A stretch of DNA of 29,187 nt, taken from the IMG/VR virus record IMGVR_UViG_3300035070_001995, positions 1-29,187 of that record. One strand, written 5' to 3'. The DNA is from a virus. A program made the position numbers and the translations under genes. The stretch's first letter is position 1, and every line of letters begins with the position of its first letter. Below are positions 10,922 to 29,187 of the stretch, piece by piece. The notes under the pieces are model-generated. The model was not told where the DNA came from, made no database searches, and saw only the letters and a program-made list of their open reading frames with translations.

Positions 10922-11395
10922 TCACCACGGGAAATCGCACATCACGATCTTGGCCGACGCATCAATCGCGTAGGCGCAGATCGCATCCGTCACGAGCGCC
11001 GACACGTCGAGCGTGCCGTCCGTCGATCCGACCGGCGTCAGCGCGTTGCCGTCGCCACCAGCGGTCAGGGCGGTGTTGAGCGTGGCCGGGCCTTTGATCT
11101 GCACCCAGCAATACTCATTGTTCGCCGGGGCCGACTGCAGAACGCCAGCCCCAAGACCTGCGCTGTCCGACAGGTCGGACGTGACGGCGGTCGCCGAACC
11201 CGCCGAAACCCCGCTCGGGGCGTAGTAATAGGCCACGTTGCCCGCAACAGCCGCGACGGAACCCGCAGCGGTCTTGTATTGAACGAACTTGTAGACCTTG
11301 GCCCCGACGAAGGCGATATCGCCCAGCGCGGGGGTATTGCCTTCCGTCAGCGCCGTGTAGGTCGCCGTCAGGTTGGCACCGGAGTAGATACCCAT
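10922..11395 (-). CDS. Head decoration-like protein
   Basis: A 157-residue protein starting MGIYSGANLTATYTALTEGN, 12 bases after the major capsid stop. It is small, beta-rich and full of Ala, Gly and Thr (FVGAKVYKFVQYKTAAGSVA, GTLDVSALVTDAICAYAIDA), with few charged residues. Small beta proteins directly after the major capsid gene are often decoration or stabilising proteins on the outer shell. It shares this flavour with the 15145 protein. The call rests on position, length and composition; I do not recognise a named family. A strong terminator hairpin follows it. Confidence 0.6.
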   Translation of the reverse strand: MGIYSGANLTATYTALTEGNTPALGDIAFVGAKVYKFVQYKTAAGSVAAVAGNVAYYYAPSGVSAGSATAVTSDLSDSAGLGAGVLQSAPANNEYCWVQIKGPATLNTALTAGGDGNALTPVGSTDGTLDVSALVTDAICAYAIDASAKIVMCDFPW

Positions 11396-21511: not shown

Positions 21512-21882
21512 GCCAGCCCCCAGATGTTTTCCGACCGTTTGGTTTTGCCGACGACCTTGGCTTGCTTGTATCCCCGCAAAACCCGCAGATGGTGCCCCGT
21601 TTTCTCCGCGCTGATGCCCATGGCCTCAGCCGCCTGGGCAATGGTGACTGGGCGTTCTGCCATCATCGCCAGCAACTGTTCCCTGCGTTTCATGCCGCGC
21701 AGAATGTTCCCCTGAATGCCCCGCGAACGGTTTTCGCGCATCACCGCGGCCTCCTGCCGCGAGAGGAATTTGGTGCGGCCGAACCTCTCCCACATCCGCT
21801 GGTTTTCAGCCGCAGCCGTGCTTTTCAGGGACGCGCGCAGTATCTCGCCAATCACTCCGGCCCTATCAGTTCGCATATCCAT
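21508..21882 (-). CDS. Winged-helix DNA-binding protein
   Basis: A 124-residue protein starting MDMRTDRAGVIGEILRASLK at 21882, six bases after GGAGGG and overlapping the DnaA-like gene by 17 bases. The first 60 residues are helical and basic (NQRMWERFGRTKFLSRQEAA). Residues about 65-124 form a winged helix-turn-helix (REQLLAMMAERPVTIAQAAE AMGISAEKTGHHLRVLRGYK) ending in a wing (AKVVGKTKRSENIWGLA), similar in layout to ArsR-type and other phage regulators. Its place in the replication block suggests a regulator or an accessory to initiation. The target is unknown. Confidence 0.7.
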   Translation of the reverse strand: MDMRTDRAGVIGEILRASLKSTAAAENQRMWERFGRTKFLSRQEAAVMRENRSRGIQGNILRGMKRREQLLAMMAERPVTIAQAAEAMGISAEKTGHHLRVLRGYKQAKVVGKTKRSENIWGLA

Positions 21883-22168
21883 TCATGTCCCTCCGTTTTT
21901 CATGTGCCTTGATGCCGTGAATAATCGTGGTGTGATCCCGGCCCAATTCGCGGCAGATTGCCGTTGTTGAGTGACCGGCTTTGTTCGCCAGCCACATGAC
22001 TTCCTGCCTCGGGCGCACGAATTCATGCCTGCGGCTGTCGCCGTAAATATGGGCCGGGGAAACGCCGTGGCGGCGCGCGACGAAAACGACAAACGTGTTT
22101 ATATCCGCCCTGGGTTTGGGAACCCCTGCTGTTTGAAGAACCGACGACATGAAGGAATACCGGCTCAT
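21866..22168 (-). CDS. Stand-alone DnaA domain IV-like protein
   Basis: A 100-residue protein starting MSRYSFMSSVLQTAGVPKPR, overlapping the upstream gene by four bases. Residues about 23-90 match the DNA-binding domain IV of DnaA: INTFVVFVARRHGVSPAHIY, RPRQEVMWLANKAGHSTTAI and the signature GRDHTTIIHGIKAHEKR (76-92), which in DnaA reads DnaA boxes. The ATPase domain III is absent. It could bind DnaA boxes on phage or host DNA, help start phage replication, or block host initiation. Similar free domains occur in phages and prophages of Alphaproteobacteria. The domain call is strong; the role is open. Confidence 0.85.
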   Translation of the reverse strand: MSRYSFMSSVLQTAGVPKPRADINTFVVFVARRHGVSPAHIYGDSRRHEFVRPRQEVMWLANKAGHSTTAICRELGRDHTTIIHGIKAHEKRRDMNGYAN

Positions 22169-24069: not shown

Positions 24070-25048
24070 TCCCGAAAAGATCGCCGACCGATGCCTCGGC
24101 TTCTTTCAGGTTCTTGTTCGCCTGTGCCGCATATTCAGGTTTCAATTCGAACCCAAGATAGCGGCGGAACATTTTAACAGCCTGATAGCCAGTCGAACCG
24201 ATGCCATTGAACGGGTCCATCACTACATCGCCGGGCTTTGAATAGAGCCTCAGGCAACGTTCGATCACGTCCAGTTGTAGCGGGCAGACGTGCTTTTCAT
24301 CATTCTGCGCCTTCATGCGGTTCAGAACGTTGCCCTGCTGAATGTCCATCCATACCGGCGATGCCAGTTTCTGCCATTCGTAAACGTCAAATTCCGCATG
24401 AGGCAGAAGCGCGGCGATTTGTTCATCGGTCGGGGTTTCCGACGCCAGCCCGAGGCGGTGCATTTCGTGCAGCCATGCCTTGGCGATGCGGACGGCCTCT
24501 TTCGTGTCACCCGGCGCACAATGTTCGACCCGATCAGGGTTGTCACCCGGAGCACGGAAGAACAGCATATAGTCTGGCATCCCTACCCGGTTCATTGTGC
24601 TGTCCTTTCTGATCTGCTTGTAGAGCAGGCCCAAGGCTTTCGTGCGCTGCATCTCCACAACCGGATCTTTCCATATCGTGGAACGCCCGTGGTAGATCAG
24701 CCCGGCCGCCTCATGCGCACGGATCAGATCGCCGGAGAAATCCTGCAGCCCGATATACCCGTGCTTTCCCTTGCGGGTCGGCAGGTCGGTGCAGTGGACG
24801 CAGGCCATGCGCCCAGGCTTCATCACGCGGGTCAGAGCCTCGGCGAAGAATTGGTATTGCGCCATGAACGCCTGACCTTCGCCAGCGTTACCCAAGTCAC
24901 GTTCGCTGTCCGAATAGACGAACAAATCCCCGAACGGCGGCGAGAATACCGCGCAGTCGATTGACGCCTCCGGCATGGCCCACATCCCCTCGATGCAATC
25001 GGAGTTGTGGATGGCCCATCCGGCCCCTTGGTATTCCGGCTGTTTCAT
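24056..25048 (-). CDS. DNA methyltransferase (N4-cytosine / N6-adenine type)
   Basis: A 330-residue protein starting MKQPEYQGAGWAIHNSDCIE at 25048 (overlapping the helicase stop by four bases). It has the catalytic motif SPPF (36-39) near the N terminus and the cofactor motif DPFNGIGSTGYQA (278-290) near the C terminus, the order of beta-class amino-methyltransferases. About 65 residues between 165 and 235 look like the target-recognition part. It would transfer a methyl group from S-adenosylmethionine to an exocyclic amino group of DNA. No matching restriction nuclease is seen, so it is probably an orphan enzyme for protection or regulation. The target base and site cannot be read. Confidence 0.88.
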   Translation of the reverse strand: MKQPEYQGAGWAIHNSDCIEGMWAMPEASIDCAVFSPPFGDLFVYSDSERDLGNAGEGQAFMAQYQFFAEALTRVMKPGRMACVHCTDLPTRKGKHGYIGLQDFSGDLIRAHEAAGLIYHGRSTIWKDPVVEMQRTKALGLLYKQIRKDSTMNRVGMPDYMLFFRAPGDNPDRVEHCAPGDTKEAVRIAKAWLHEMHRLGLASETPTDEQIAALLPHAEFDVYEWQKLASPVWMDIQQGNVLNRMKAQNDEKHVCPLQLDVIERCLRLYSKPGDVVMDPFNGIGSTGYQAVKMFRRYLGFELKPEYAAQANKNLKEAEASVGDLFGIAAE

Positions 25049-26427
25049 TGTTCCGTCCTGATCCAGTTGGGGAACGCCAATTCAAGCGGGCGTTCGTATT
25101 TGACGCGGCGGGATGCTTCCGACTGCGCAGCGCGCATGGCGTCGGCCATCCGGCGCTTCATTTCGTCGTGCTTTTTCGATTTCTCGTTTATGACGTTCCA
25201 GATCACGGCTTCCGTATCGGCGATCACGATGTCATTGCGCACCGTCTCGGATTGCCCGAACCGATGCGACCGCCGCACGGCCTGATAATGCTGCTCATAA
25301 CTAAAACTAATCGAAGCAAACACTGCATGGGCGCAGTGCTGCCAGTTGACGCCGAACCCTGCCAGCTTCGGCTTGGTGACGATGGCGCGGTAATCACCGC
25401 TGGCAAAGCCGAGAAGCCGCCGCTCTTTTTCGTCGGGGTCCAGATCGCCGCGAACCTCGATTGCTCCGTCCACCAGCTTCGCCAGCAGCGCGCTTTCGTC
25501 ATTCGTCTCGCACCAGACCGTGACCGGCTTGTCGTGGTTTGCCAGCGATGCCGCCAATTCGCAGCGTTCGCTAATGGTCAGCCGCTTTTCGGCGTGGAAA
25601 CTGGTCGCGGACATTTCCGGGATGCGGAACAGCATCCCATCGGCAACATCCGTGTGCCGATCTGCGGCAACCTCATGAATGCGGCGATCTACATCATGCA
25701 GGACATATCCAGTATCATCCCCTCCAAGGTCGGATGGCAGGGTTGCGCACCGCGACCATGACGCGACGAAATTCCAGAAGTCATCAACGGCATGGCCCTT
25801 GAGACGCCATTCCTGCGATGCCGTCGACGTGTCATTGATGAACCATTTCGAGAGCATTTCCTGCTGGCGCATCACCCCGAGAAACTCGGCATGATTGCCA
25901 AGTTCGGTATGATCGTTCGGGGATGGCGTTGCGGTTGCCGCCAGCTTGTAAGGCGTGGCTTCAAACGCTTCCTGGATCAAAGCGCGCGTGCGCCCTGCGT
26001 ATGATTTCAGGATGCTGCTTTCGTCGAGGATGACCGCGCCGAAGGCCGACGGATCGAGTTTCTGCAGCCGCTCATAGTTCGCCACCATGACGCCCGCGCC
26101 GACTTCGTGATGCTCGCGGATTTGCCGAGCGTCAATGCCGAATTTCTGCCCCTCTCGGACCATCTGCCCGGCGACAGCAAGCGGAGTCAGGATCAGAGAC
26201 GGCTTGCCGGTTTCTTCGGCGCACTGGCGGGCGAATTCCAACTCGATGAATGACTTCCCGAGGCCGGTATCAAGGAAGGCAGCGGACTTGCCGCGATCCA
26301 GCGCGAAACGAACAACGGCCTGCTGATGCGCCTTGGCGTGGATGTTGATTGGTTGCGGGTTGAACCCGCCGCGCTTGGCGCCAGGCGCGCGGGCGGCGAT
26401 GAAATCTCGATACTCTTGGAGGCTCAT
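25045..26427 (-). CDS. SNF2/DEAD-type helicase
   Basis: A 460-residue protein starting MSLQEYRDFIAARAPGAKRG at 26427. Superfamily 2 motifs in order: Walker A LDTGLGKS (52-59), the acidic box LDESS (134-138), motif III-like TATPSPNDHTE (165-175), and in the second domain GFGVNWQHCAHAVFASISFS and QAVRRSHRFGQ (382-392), the SNF2-type motif VI. It should use ATP to move on or remodel double-stranded DNA. The gene is joined by four-base overlaps to the regulator and to the methyltransferase. This helicase-methylase pair recurs in phages of Alphaproteobacteria as I know them. It may act in replication or against host defence; which one is open. Confidence 0.88.
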   Translation of the reverse strand: MSLQEYRDFIAARAPGAKRGGFNPQPINIHAKAHQQAVVRFALDRGKSAAFLDTGLGKSFIELEFARQCAEETGKPSLILTPLAVAGQMVREGQKFGIDARQIREHHEVGAGVMVANYERLQKLDPSAFGAVILDESSILKSYAGRTRALIQEAFEATPYKLAATATPSPNDHTELGNHAEFLGVMRQQEMLSKWFINDTSTASQEWRLKGHAVDDFWNFVASWSRCATLPSDLGGDDTGYVLHDVDRRIHEVAADRHTDVADGMLFRIPEMSATSFHAEKRLTISERCELAASLANHDKPVTVWCETNDESALLAKLVDGAIEVRGDLDPDEKERRLLGFASGDYRAIVTKPKLAGFGVNWQHCAHAVFASISFSYEQHYQAVRRSHRFGQSETVRNDIVIADTEAVIWNVINEKSKKHDEMKRRMADAMRAAQSEASRRVKYERPLELAFPNWIRTEQ

Positions 26428-26702
26428 TCCGCCCCCCCGGTATTGGTTTCCATACCTTCTACGGCCGCTTTAACCTGCTGCCAGCAGTCCGCATTTTGTA
26501 TATTGTCAACTGGCCGCATCCCGAAAAGCTGCGGTGGGCACTCGACGCCTACCGACTCCGCAAGGTGCTGGCATGTGTAGAACCAGGACGATGGGAACCA
26601 TCCGCGAACGACTGCGTTGCTTACTGCCGTCGCGCCTACTTCCAGCGCATCGGCCATGTTCTTTCGCCCTACGGCGTCGGCAAATTGGGGTGCTGTCATC
26701 AT
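26424..26702 (-). CDS. Cro-like helix-turn-helix regulator at the divergent switch
   Basis: A 92-residue protein starting at the ATG at 26702 (MMTAPQFADAVGRKNMADAL); the next ATG (26699) is also possible. The text FADAVGRKNMADALEVGATA VSNAVVRGWFPSSWF fits a Cro/YdaS-type helix-turn-helix, with the recognition helix near VGATAVSNAVVRGW. The rest is ESVGVECPPQLFGMRP and a helix. It is the first gene of the leftward operon and faces the rightward operon across 145 bases, the usual place of a Cro or CI-type regulator. The leftward promoter would start RNA only a few bases before this ATG, so the message may be leaderless. It probably binds the repeats in the gap. Confidence 0.75.
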   Translation of the reverse strand: MMTAPQFADAVGRKNMADALEVGATAVSNAVVRGWFPSSWFYTCQHLAESVGVECPPQLFGMRPVDNIQNADCWQQVKAAVEGMETNTGGAE

Positions 26703-26711
26703 GGTAGAAGC

Positions 26712-26741
26712 ATCATATCCATAAATGGTGGATGCACGCAA
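26712..26741 (-). promoter_or_regulatory. Leftward promoter of the early operon
   Basis: On the minus strand TTGCGT (plus 26736-26741), an 18-base spacer and TATGAT (plus 26712-26717) fit a sigma70-type promoter with a strong -10. RNA would start near 26705, only about three bases before the ATG of the regulator. A TCCAT-type operator-like repeat fills the spacer. Confidence 0.55.
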
Positions 26742-26816
26742 CCCCATAATTTGTGGCTTGCGCGCGACAGTCCATCATATGTGAATTTGCCCTTGCGGCG
26801 TCCATCTAATGTGTAT
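26718..26816. promoter_or_regulatory. Operator-like repeats in the divergent region
   Basis: GTCCATCATATGTGAAT (26770-26786) and GTCCATCTAATGTGTAT (26800-26816) agree at 14 of 17 bases and are exactly 30 bases apart. A shorter relative, TCCATAAATGGTG, lies at 26718-26730 inside the leftward promoter spacer. A partial dyad with GCAA/TTGC arms and an AATT centre lies at 26738-26761 over the leftward -35. They are good candidates for binding sites of the Cro-like protein. Confidence 0.5.
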
Positions 26817-26819
26817 ACA
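26793..26819 (+). promoter_or_regulatory. Possible rightward promoter
   Basis: A weak sigma70-type candidate: TTGCGG (26793-26798), a 15-base spacer and TATACA (26814-26819). RNA would start near 26826, 20 bases or so before the ATG at 26848. The second operator-like repeat overlaps the spacer and -10. The spacer is short, so this is tentative. Confidence 0.35.
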
Positions 26820-26847
26820 GTCAGTCCCATCAACACCGGAGACTGAC

Positions 26848-27075
26848 ATGATCAAGATCGACAAAGGCATCCCGATCCCGCGCCACAGCAAGGGGCCGAA
26901 GCCGAAGTATCCGTTCGCGCAAATGTCCATCGGGGACAGCTTTTTTGCCGCCGAAGGCAAGAGCACCATCAGCGCATCGTCCTGCCAGAACGCAAAGCGT
27001 CACGGCGGGAAATTCACCATGCGAGCCACCGTCGAGGATGGCGTCACCGGCTACCGCGTCTGGCGGATCGAGTAG
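26848..27075 (+). CDS. Small KYPF..GDSFF protein (DUF7303-like)
   Basis: A 75-residue protein starting MIKIDKGIPIPRHSKGPKPK at the ATG at 26848, with GGAG eight bases upstream. The pattern KGIPIP, then KYPFAQMSIGDSFFAAEGKS, AKRHGGKFTMRATVEDGVTG YRVWRIE matches a common small phage protein family as I know it (DUF7303-type), of unknown function. An upstream in-frame start at 26809 would lie in the promoter region. It is the first gene of the rightward operon. The last gene of the window carries a related KYPFADMAVGDW motif. Confidence 0.75.
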   Translation: MIKIDKGIPIPRHSKGPKPKYPFAQMSIGDSFFAAEGKSTISASSCQNAKRHGGKFTMRATVEDGVTGYRVWRIE

Positions 27076-28366: not shown

Positions 28367-28970
28367 GGAATGGTTCGCAGCCCGCTTGGGGCGCGTGACG
28401 GGTTCGCGCGTGGCTGACGTGATGGCGAAGACCAAGGCCGGATACAGCGCCAGCCGGGCGAACTACATGGCCGAACTGATCTGCGAGCGGCTGACCGGCC
28501 AGCAGGCCGAGCGGTTCACGAATGCCGCAATGCAGTGGGGGACTGACACCGAACCCCGCGCCCGCGCCGCATATGAGTTTCTGACCGACAATCCCGTCAT
28601 CGAGACGGGCTTTGTCCTGCACGGAGGCATTGCCGATTTCGGCGCGTCCCCCGATGGCCTGGTGGCGGATGATGGGCTTGTAGAAATCAAGTGCCCGAAC
28701 ACCGCCACCCATATCGAGACGCTCTTGGGCGAGTCCGTGCCTGGCAAATACGTCACACAGATGCAGGCGCAAATGGCCTGCACCGGCCGGGCGTGGTGCG
28801 ACTTCGTGTCGTTCGATCCGCGCCTTCCGGGCGACATGCAGCTTTGGGTCAAGAGGGTGCAGCGCGACGACGCGTTCATTGCCGACATGGAGGCCGAGAT
28901 TTCGGCCTTCCTCAGCGAAATCAACCAGAAGCTGGACGCGCTTCGCACCAAGTATGAGGTTGCAGCATGA
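28347..28970 (+). CDS. YqaJ / lambda-Exo-type recombination exonuclease
   Basis: A 207-residue protein starting MMQQHSEEWFAARLGRVTGS at 28347, with AGGGAG shortly upstream. Motifs of the family: EEWFAARLGRVTGSR near the N terminus, WGTDTEPRARAAYE (64-77, Glu69), GASPDGLV with Asp103, and LVEIKCP with Glu113 and Lys115, the metal-binding set of PD-(D/E)XK enzymes. It would digest one strand of double-stranded DNA from the end and leave single strands for Erf. It overlaps the Erf gene and, by four bases (ATGA), the next gene. The length fits the family. Confidence 0.88.
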   Translation: MMQQHSEEWFAARLGRVTGSRVADVMAKTKAGYSASRANYMAELICERLTGQQAERFTNAAMQWGTDTEPRARAAYEFLTDNPVIETGFVLHGGIADFGASPDGLVADDGLVEIKCPNTATHIETLLGESVPGKYVTQMQAQMACTGRAWCDFVSFDPRLPGDMQLWVKRVQRDDAFIADMEAEISAFLSEINQKLDALRTKYEVAA

Positions 28971-29187
28971 GCACGGCCCGCAAATACCTGGCCTGCGCCG
29001 AGGCTGGCATGACGATCAGCGAAACGGCGCGCCACCTGCGCGTCACGCCGCCCGCCGTGGTGAAGGCTGCGAAAGCCTACGGGATCACGTTCATGCGCCG
29101 GATGCCGAAAGCCCCCGTTGGGCGTCAGCACCCGTCACAGCCGCGCCGGAAATACCCGTTCGCCGACATGGCGGTTGGCGACTGGTG
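28967..29187 (+). CDS. HTH protein with KYPF..GD end, cut by right edge
   Basis: I read this frame from the ATG at 28967 (overlapping the exonuclease stop) to the window edge: 73 codons, no stop. The first part, MSTARKYLACAEAGMTISET ARHLRVTPPAVVKAAKAYGI, is a helix-turn-helix with the recognition helix near TPPAVVKAAKAYG. A basic linker follows, then RRKYPFADMAVGDW, which matches KYPFAQMSIGDSF of the first gene in this operon. It is therefore probably a fusion of a DNA-binding unit with the small DUF7303-like domain. Function unknown. Confidence 0.65.
   Translation, partial: MSTARKYLACAEAGMTISETARHLRVTPPAVVKAAKAYGITFMRRMPKAPVGRQHPSQPRRKYPFADMAVGDW

Follow-up and report, generated by a model that had tools for sequence, protein, structure and literature searches.

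How a phage could govern two divergent early operons with one small regulator is the question raised by positions 26703-26847 of the viral record IMGVR_UViG_3300035070_001995. We analyzed the whole record as one window of 29187 bases; it ends at 29187, with no sequence past the right edge, and its reading frames are open at both ends, making it a 29 kb piece. An earlier note on this DNA had described the region as a compact divergent switch with three operator-like repeats, a possibly leaderless regulator message and a single Cro-like protein acting in both directions. Our comparison with related loci indicates that it is most likely the immunity and early-control region of a lambda-type switch, in a Rhodobacteraceae-type phage, from which the repressor in the CI position was deleted, leaving Cro alone.

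Operator-like sites and promoters in the intergenic region

The region lies between a minus-strand gene for a 92-aa Cro-like regulator (26424-26702), with homologues in EBPR podovirus 2 (65%) and other loci, and a plus-strand gene at 26848-27075. The regulator gene is the first of a leftward operon, in which helicase, methylase and replication genes then follow. The plus-strand gene opens the rightward operon, preceded by a Shine-Dalgarno sequence (GGAG, 26838-26841, plus strand, 6 nt ahead of the ATG at 26848) and followed by ERF and YqaJ recombination genes; it gave a weak match to DUF7303, and an in-frame translation search found no relatives of it. The gene cut by the right edge (28967-29187) has an HTH start together with a motif, KYPFADMAVGDW, that is similar to the beginning of the first rightward gene (KYPFAQMSIGDSF). 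Near the replication genes of the leftward operon, a 100-aa protein (21866-22168) matched the DnaA C-terminal DNA-binding domain only (PF08299, E 1e-15).

We built a 17-bp symmetric operator matrix (consensus about ATCCACnnnnnGTGGAT) from 25 sites of eight relatives, none of the sites coming from the window. Its four highest scores in the 29187 bases, at 26717, 26770, 26800 and 26742, all fell inside the intergenic region. The best of them, O1 (OR1-like, ATCCATAAATGGTGGAT, 26717-26733, 20.8 bits), overlaps the spacer of the leftward promoter, as had been noted, and was found in all 20 loci compared. O2 (OR2-like, 26742-26758, 11.3 bits), which the earlier count of three repeats had missed, abuts the -35 hexamer at the same 25-bp spacing from O1 as in relatives, and is followed by TGC as in OR arrays. 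After a further 28 bp comes an OLa-like site (GTCCATCATATGTGAAT, 26770-26786, 17.6 bits), and 30 bp beyond it an OLb-like site (GTCCATCTAATGTGTAT, 26800-26816, 13.8 bits), within the spacer of the rightward promoter and in the register to a TTG-type -35 that OLb has in relatives. These last two are the 17-base repeats recognized before: they are 82% alike, stand 30 bp apart as OL pairs do, and are separated by a spacer (TTGCCCTTGCGGC) that fits OL spacers such as TTACCCTTGCATG in L103. Reading 26770-26786 solely as O3 proper was rejected because its right flank is OL-like; it may be an O3/OLa hybrid.

Random sequences with the same dinucleotide make-up (100 simulations) gave about 1.2 matches of at least 11 bits per 29 kb, with a mean best score of 11.9 bits and a highest of 19.1, so that four sites in 100 bp are far beyond chance; the weaker sites are convincing through their place and company, not through score alone. 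The fifth-best match, at 26487-26503 (10.3 bits), is a degenerate intragenic site at +199 of the regulator gene whose score alone is not significant, and 10 of 19 relatives have a site of 16-23 bits at the matching place. Its position in most of these relatives (among them L002:6197, L085:4197, L086:3946, L089:6197, L094:6200, L095:6200, L098:1318 and L105:6197) is +196 to +199, where the gene encodes the C-terminal part of the protein, and its presence there accounts for a conserved Val-Asp in the otherwise variable tail of the protein. The intragenic site may have a looping or roadblock role.

The leftward promoter has its -10 (TATGAT, 26712-26717, minus strand) 9 nt ahead of the regulator's start codon (26702), in the register to O1 seen in relatives, and its -35 (TTGCGT, 26736-26741, minus strand) across an 18-bp spacer, with the TTG kept in 18 of 20 loci. 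It is present as described earlier, but calling it a good promoter was generous: the -35 matches TTGACA at three of six positions, and a generic promoter scan returned none at threshold. For the rightward, PL-like promoter we propose a -35 at 26793-26798 (TTGCGG, plus strand), its TTG at the same place as in the OL spacers of relatives, and, from the register, a -10 at 26816-26821 (TACAGT, plus strand; 17-bp spacer). An operator motif is common to both divergent early promoters, as the description of a compact divergent switch implied.

In 16 of 20 loci the regulator ATG follows O1 at a distance of 11 nt; the distance is 10 nt in L104 and L108, 9 in L109 and 14 in the window. The -10 begins at the final base of O1 and is thus separated from the ATG by 6 nt in the 16 relatives and by 9 in the window, so the RNA start is expected at the AUG or about three bases before it. 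A good -10 in this register (TA....T) is found in about half of the loci, including TATAAT in L095 and TATAGT in four; it is poor in L086, L088, L089, L103, L104, L108 and L109. Matches to the anti-Shine-Dalgarno sequence of at least 4 nt precede the regulator in 4 of 20 loci, compared with 14 of 19 for the opposite, OL-side gene and 15 of 19 for the next gene. Before the window regulator a Shine-Dalgarno sequence is absent, the best match being TGAT, part of the -10. The conserved distances and the rarity of these sequences predict that the regulator message is probably leaderless, in agreement with the earlier suggestion. The regulator start in L103 was set by homology. L091, counted in these distances, has an ATG at 11 nt, with a frame of 15 aa and a stop in the homologous frame just upstream of the match; its regulator gene may be broken.

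The Cro-like protein and its relatives

The AF2 model of the 92-aa regulator has a pLDDT of about 92-95 over residues 1-60, and its best structural matches are Cro proteins: with VIA-align, Cro of prophage Xfaso 1 came first (Z 7.5, rmsd 2.2, 62 aligned), with P22 Cro at Z 5.6 and N15 Cro at 5.4, all Z values being below 8. The modeled protein thus has a Cro fold, as its designation as Cro-like had anticipated. Foldseek gave no match to the model at E<=0.001, its leading rows being YdaS and Cro proteins. By sequence the regulator matches the Cro and CI families weakly, and the window protein stays below the cut-off of every family model. Among 18 members of the regulator family, Pfam Cro matched four (E<=0.01; the window protein not among them), Phage_CI_repr three and YdaS_toxin two, and in a search of PDB sequences with the family profile just two of the matches were Cro proteins: 3bd1, at E 0.046, and the XPH1 hybrid, at E 0.73. 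The gene is the first of an early operon, with the operator-like sites O1 and O2 on its own promoter. Judged by their positions, this small protein corresponds to Cro, and the XRE gene that is missing here, described below, to CI.

Searched alone against viral contigs, the window protein found no close relatives, and its sole match in 50,697 phage records was gp66 of EBPR podovirus 2 (65%). An alignment of these two reached four viral loci and five bacterial-genome loci (four of them good matches), and a wider alignment reached 18 viral loci, four in records already found with the two-sequence alignment. With copies removed, we compared 20 loci including the window; their sources are viral contigs, EBPR podovirus 2 and, for good matches that carried a name, Rhodobacteraceae-type genomes. 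L090 (a near copy of L086), L096 and L097 (of L095) and L107 (of L106) were dropped from the counts as copies. Also dropped were L099-L102, which come from the same records as L085-L088 (L099 was kept for the OL pair of L085), L093 (a short 43% match) and L112, a later find that carries the XRE gene. Eighty relatives of the helicase, mostly with other genes at the place of the regulator, were also left out.

Nineteen other loci share the regulator, and each of the 18 that are not in the L095 group has a divergent XRE gene in the CI position. Their gene order is an early operon led by the Cro-like gene, O1-O2-O3, the divergent XRE gene, OLa-OLb and the opposite early operon. In these 18 loci the promoter of the Cro-like gene has O1 in its spacer, with O2 25 bp out against the -35 and O3 26 bp further on the XRE side; O3 is degenerate in L088, L089, L094 and L098, and O2 is below threshold in L108 and L111. 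The OLa-OLb pair, its sites 29-31 bp apart, is found beyond the XRE gene in 17 of the 18, and was not seen in L087, whose record is short; in nearly all pairs OLb is preceded, about one base away, by the end of a TTG-type -35 hexamer. From the OR to the OL array the distance is about 430 to 4800 bp (15 loci measured). In L085:500-2500 (the record of L099), frames that we take to be an IS66-type transposase set, judging by their look, lengthen this gap to about 4.2 kb. The first OL-side frame of L088 (L088:1-630) has low-complexity Ala/Arg-rich repeats (AAARAAAWAA).

The regulator was also found in 18 of 394 genomes of one relative's family, at 19 places; a divergent XRE gene stood beside it in 15 by tblastn and in the other four by reading frames. 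The XRE gene of relatives encodes about 86 aa and gave an ordinary HTH family match in 8 of 8 cases; its profile found no PDB sequence at E<=0.01. From its position, we infer that it is the lysogeny repressor.

Absence of the XRE gene in the window and the L095 group

EBPR gp65 and the XRE profile found nothing in the 29 kb record, which bears out the earlier remark that no second repressor is seen in the window. Here O1 and O2 run directly on into OLa and OLb. We place the junction within 26759-26786, where the left flank is OR-like, the right flank is OL-like and the divergent XRE gene of relatives is absent. The right-hand repeats, formerly read as further operators of one switch, are operator-like but appear to be a transplanted OL-type pair. 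The XRE profile matched 17 of 21 records, the misses being the window, L095, L096 and L097. In these three the array is O1-25-O2-30-OLb, with O2 running straight into an OL spacer (TAGTGCTTGCATA), so that the OR and OL halves are fused at a different junction from that in the window. L095 and L096 are distinct strains, 99.1-99.4% alike, from separate assemblies with the same array, and L097, from a third assembly, is identical to L095 over its 4698 bases; a junction repeated in three assemblies is no assembly accident. On the OL side of L095 (4420-5181) there is a gene with tandem pentapeptide-like repeats (ANLxxANL).

Instead, the repressor might be encoded elsewhere, in a stretch of the genome outside the record, and reach the same operators in trans. 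The window is a piece with open frames at both ends, longer relatives reach about 36-46 kb, and an XRE gene or an integrase could lie in the missing part. We nonetheless consider this unlikely: every XRE-carrying relative found has the gene between OR and OL, a stretch that is fully sequenced in the window, and the 36.5 kb record of L095 also lacks it. A tyrosine integrase (PF00589) was found in 11 of 21 records, in none of the four without the XRE gene; it is also absent from 6 of the 17 with it, so its absence says little on lifestyle. No serine recombinase (PF00239) was found in 20 records.

In the regulator tree, the lack of XRE requires two changes, and 0% of bootstrap trees need only one. 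L095 pairs with the XRE-carrying L105 at 100/98, the inner nodes being mostly weak, and the nearest relative of the window is L092, which also carries XRE. Because all 18 relatives outside the L095 group keep the divergent gene here, the one-regulator state is, on the sequences compared, derived, and the repressor was apparently lost twice in the family, once in the window lineage and once in the L095 group. The view that one Cro-like protein serves both directions is right in part: no second repressor was found in the window and predicted sites lie on both promoters, but its solitude is secondary. The converse, an ancestor with a single regulator and an insertion of the XRE gene between O2 and OLa in the other phages, seems to us very improbable. 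The tree is short and weakly supported, and parsimony does not settle the direction at every point; yet one compact ancestor predicts one shared array, whereas the junctions of the window and L095 differ, the nearest relatives of both carry XRE, and the gene occurs at each of the 18 other loci and the 19 genome places.

That the region holds ordinary early promoters whose repeats serve a host regulator, with no connection to the small protein, is highly improbable. Binding by the small protein is a prediction; against the host regulator, the sites travel with the regulator gene across 20 loci, about half of them have the intragenic copy, and AVSNAVVR, the region of the recognition helix, hardly varies, with CCAC/GTGG retained in the sites. 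An assembly chimera is scarcely credible, for although the window comes from a single metagenome record and operators in several copies are known to cause such errors, no exact repeat in 26641-26860 exceeds 8 nt, which is not enough to lead an assembler astray, and an analogous fusion occurs in L095, L096 and L097, from three assemblies and two distinct strains.

Proposed Cro-only circuit and known switches

The sites, their spacings and flanks, the missing XRE gene and the conserved distances, all features of the DNA itself, suggest how a lambda-type switch reduced to Cro would work. A deletion between OR and OL would have removed the CI-position gene from the ancestral switch. Recombination between similar operators is the simplest reading of its route, as the L095 junction is at an operator and that of the window within or beside one. 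Exact OR/OL repeats in present-day relatives are only 6-16 nt, so homologous recombination proper is no more than a candidate route, and the 28 bp from O2 to the next site in the window, against 26 bp from O2 to O3 in relatives, calls for an extra small change. A dimer of the Cro-like protein would bind all four sites, turning down its own operon through O1 in the promoter spacer and O2 at the -35, and the rightward operon through OLb in the promoter spacer. As the protein builds up, such negative feedback would restrain both early operons, with no maintenance repressor. Its own RNA would start at the AUG or within about three bases of it and be translated without a ribosome-binding site. With no CI to hold a lysogen, a lytic life, or Cro as sole governor, would be expected.

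We also put forward, tentatively and as a conjecture we would not yet favor, that similar operators flanking a repressor gene act as built-in excision points, so that one-step OR-OL deletions repeatedly convert temperate members of the group to repressor-less forms and, by the same event, unite both early promoters in a Cro-only feedback node, the window (near O3xOLa) and L095 (O2xOLa) being independent products. No description of an operator fusion between OR and OL was found in the literature searched, subscription papers being mostly outside its reach.

The lambda switch has three OR sites on two promoters and separate OL sites on the opposite early operon. The XRE-carrying relatives resemble it in this and in their divergent CI- and Cro-position genes. 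They differ in their CI-position protein, which at about 86 aa is too short for a C-terminal domain of the lambda CI type, and in having two sites in OL; the window, also with two OL sites, differs further in having no CI-position gene and OR and OL fused. Clear or virulent derivatives of temperate phages arise by loss of lysogeny genes, as in lambda and Streptococcus thermophilus phages. The repressor deletion proposed here is alike, except that in the window it joins two operator sets, and that it is seen in environmental phages, apparently twice. The fused array would be a sequence scar for the loss of lysogeny by a temperate phage in nature. The value of Cro without CI is usually approached with engineered lambda; a natural Cro-only circuit makes its usefulness to a phage without CI testable. 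The family further provides a Cro-position gene that is well conserved and probably leaderless, together with an intragenic operator-like site.

EBPR podovirus 2 (JF412295) has an orthologous Cro-like gene and helicase (gp65/gp66 region) with the same operator motif and register; unlike the window, it has an integrase and still carries gp65, a divergent regulator lying between OR and OL. The Sulfitobacter phages CB2047-A and CB2047-C, closest to EBPR podovirus 2, are described as temperate, with an integrase (PMC4047441), which fits a temperate ancestry of the window phage. As for the leaderless message, the earlier note had drawn a parallel with lambda cI; the gene is in the Cro position, so cro of PY54 is the nearer precedent. 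In PY54 the cro and cI messages are leaderless by RACE (PMC4488713); a leaderless message is likewise predicted for the Cro-position gene of the window, while the PY54 operators differ, Cro binds one site and the repressor is kept. The PaaR2/YdaS switch of CP-933P (PMC8630535) has two small divergent regulators and a leaderless message, and YdaS is among the fold matches of the window regulator; there, however, the leaderless gene, paaR2, is on the CI side, and the switch is tied to a toxin-antitoxin system.

Finally, the helicase and methylase genes of the window (24073-26426) are 82% identical in DNA to those of Pseudanabaena phage Pan4 (L083), a likeness that ends at the helicase start, beyond which the Pan4 regulator module differs. 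Other palindrome-like repeats (e.g. ATACGCAAAATGCGTAG) occur in Pan4, around L083:9267-9314 and 11103-11144. With different repeats beside a shared helicase, control modules look exchangeable at this place.
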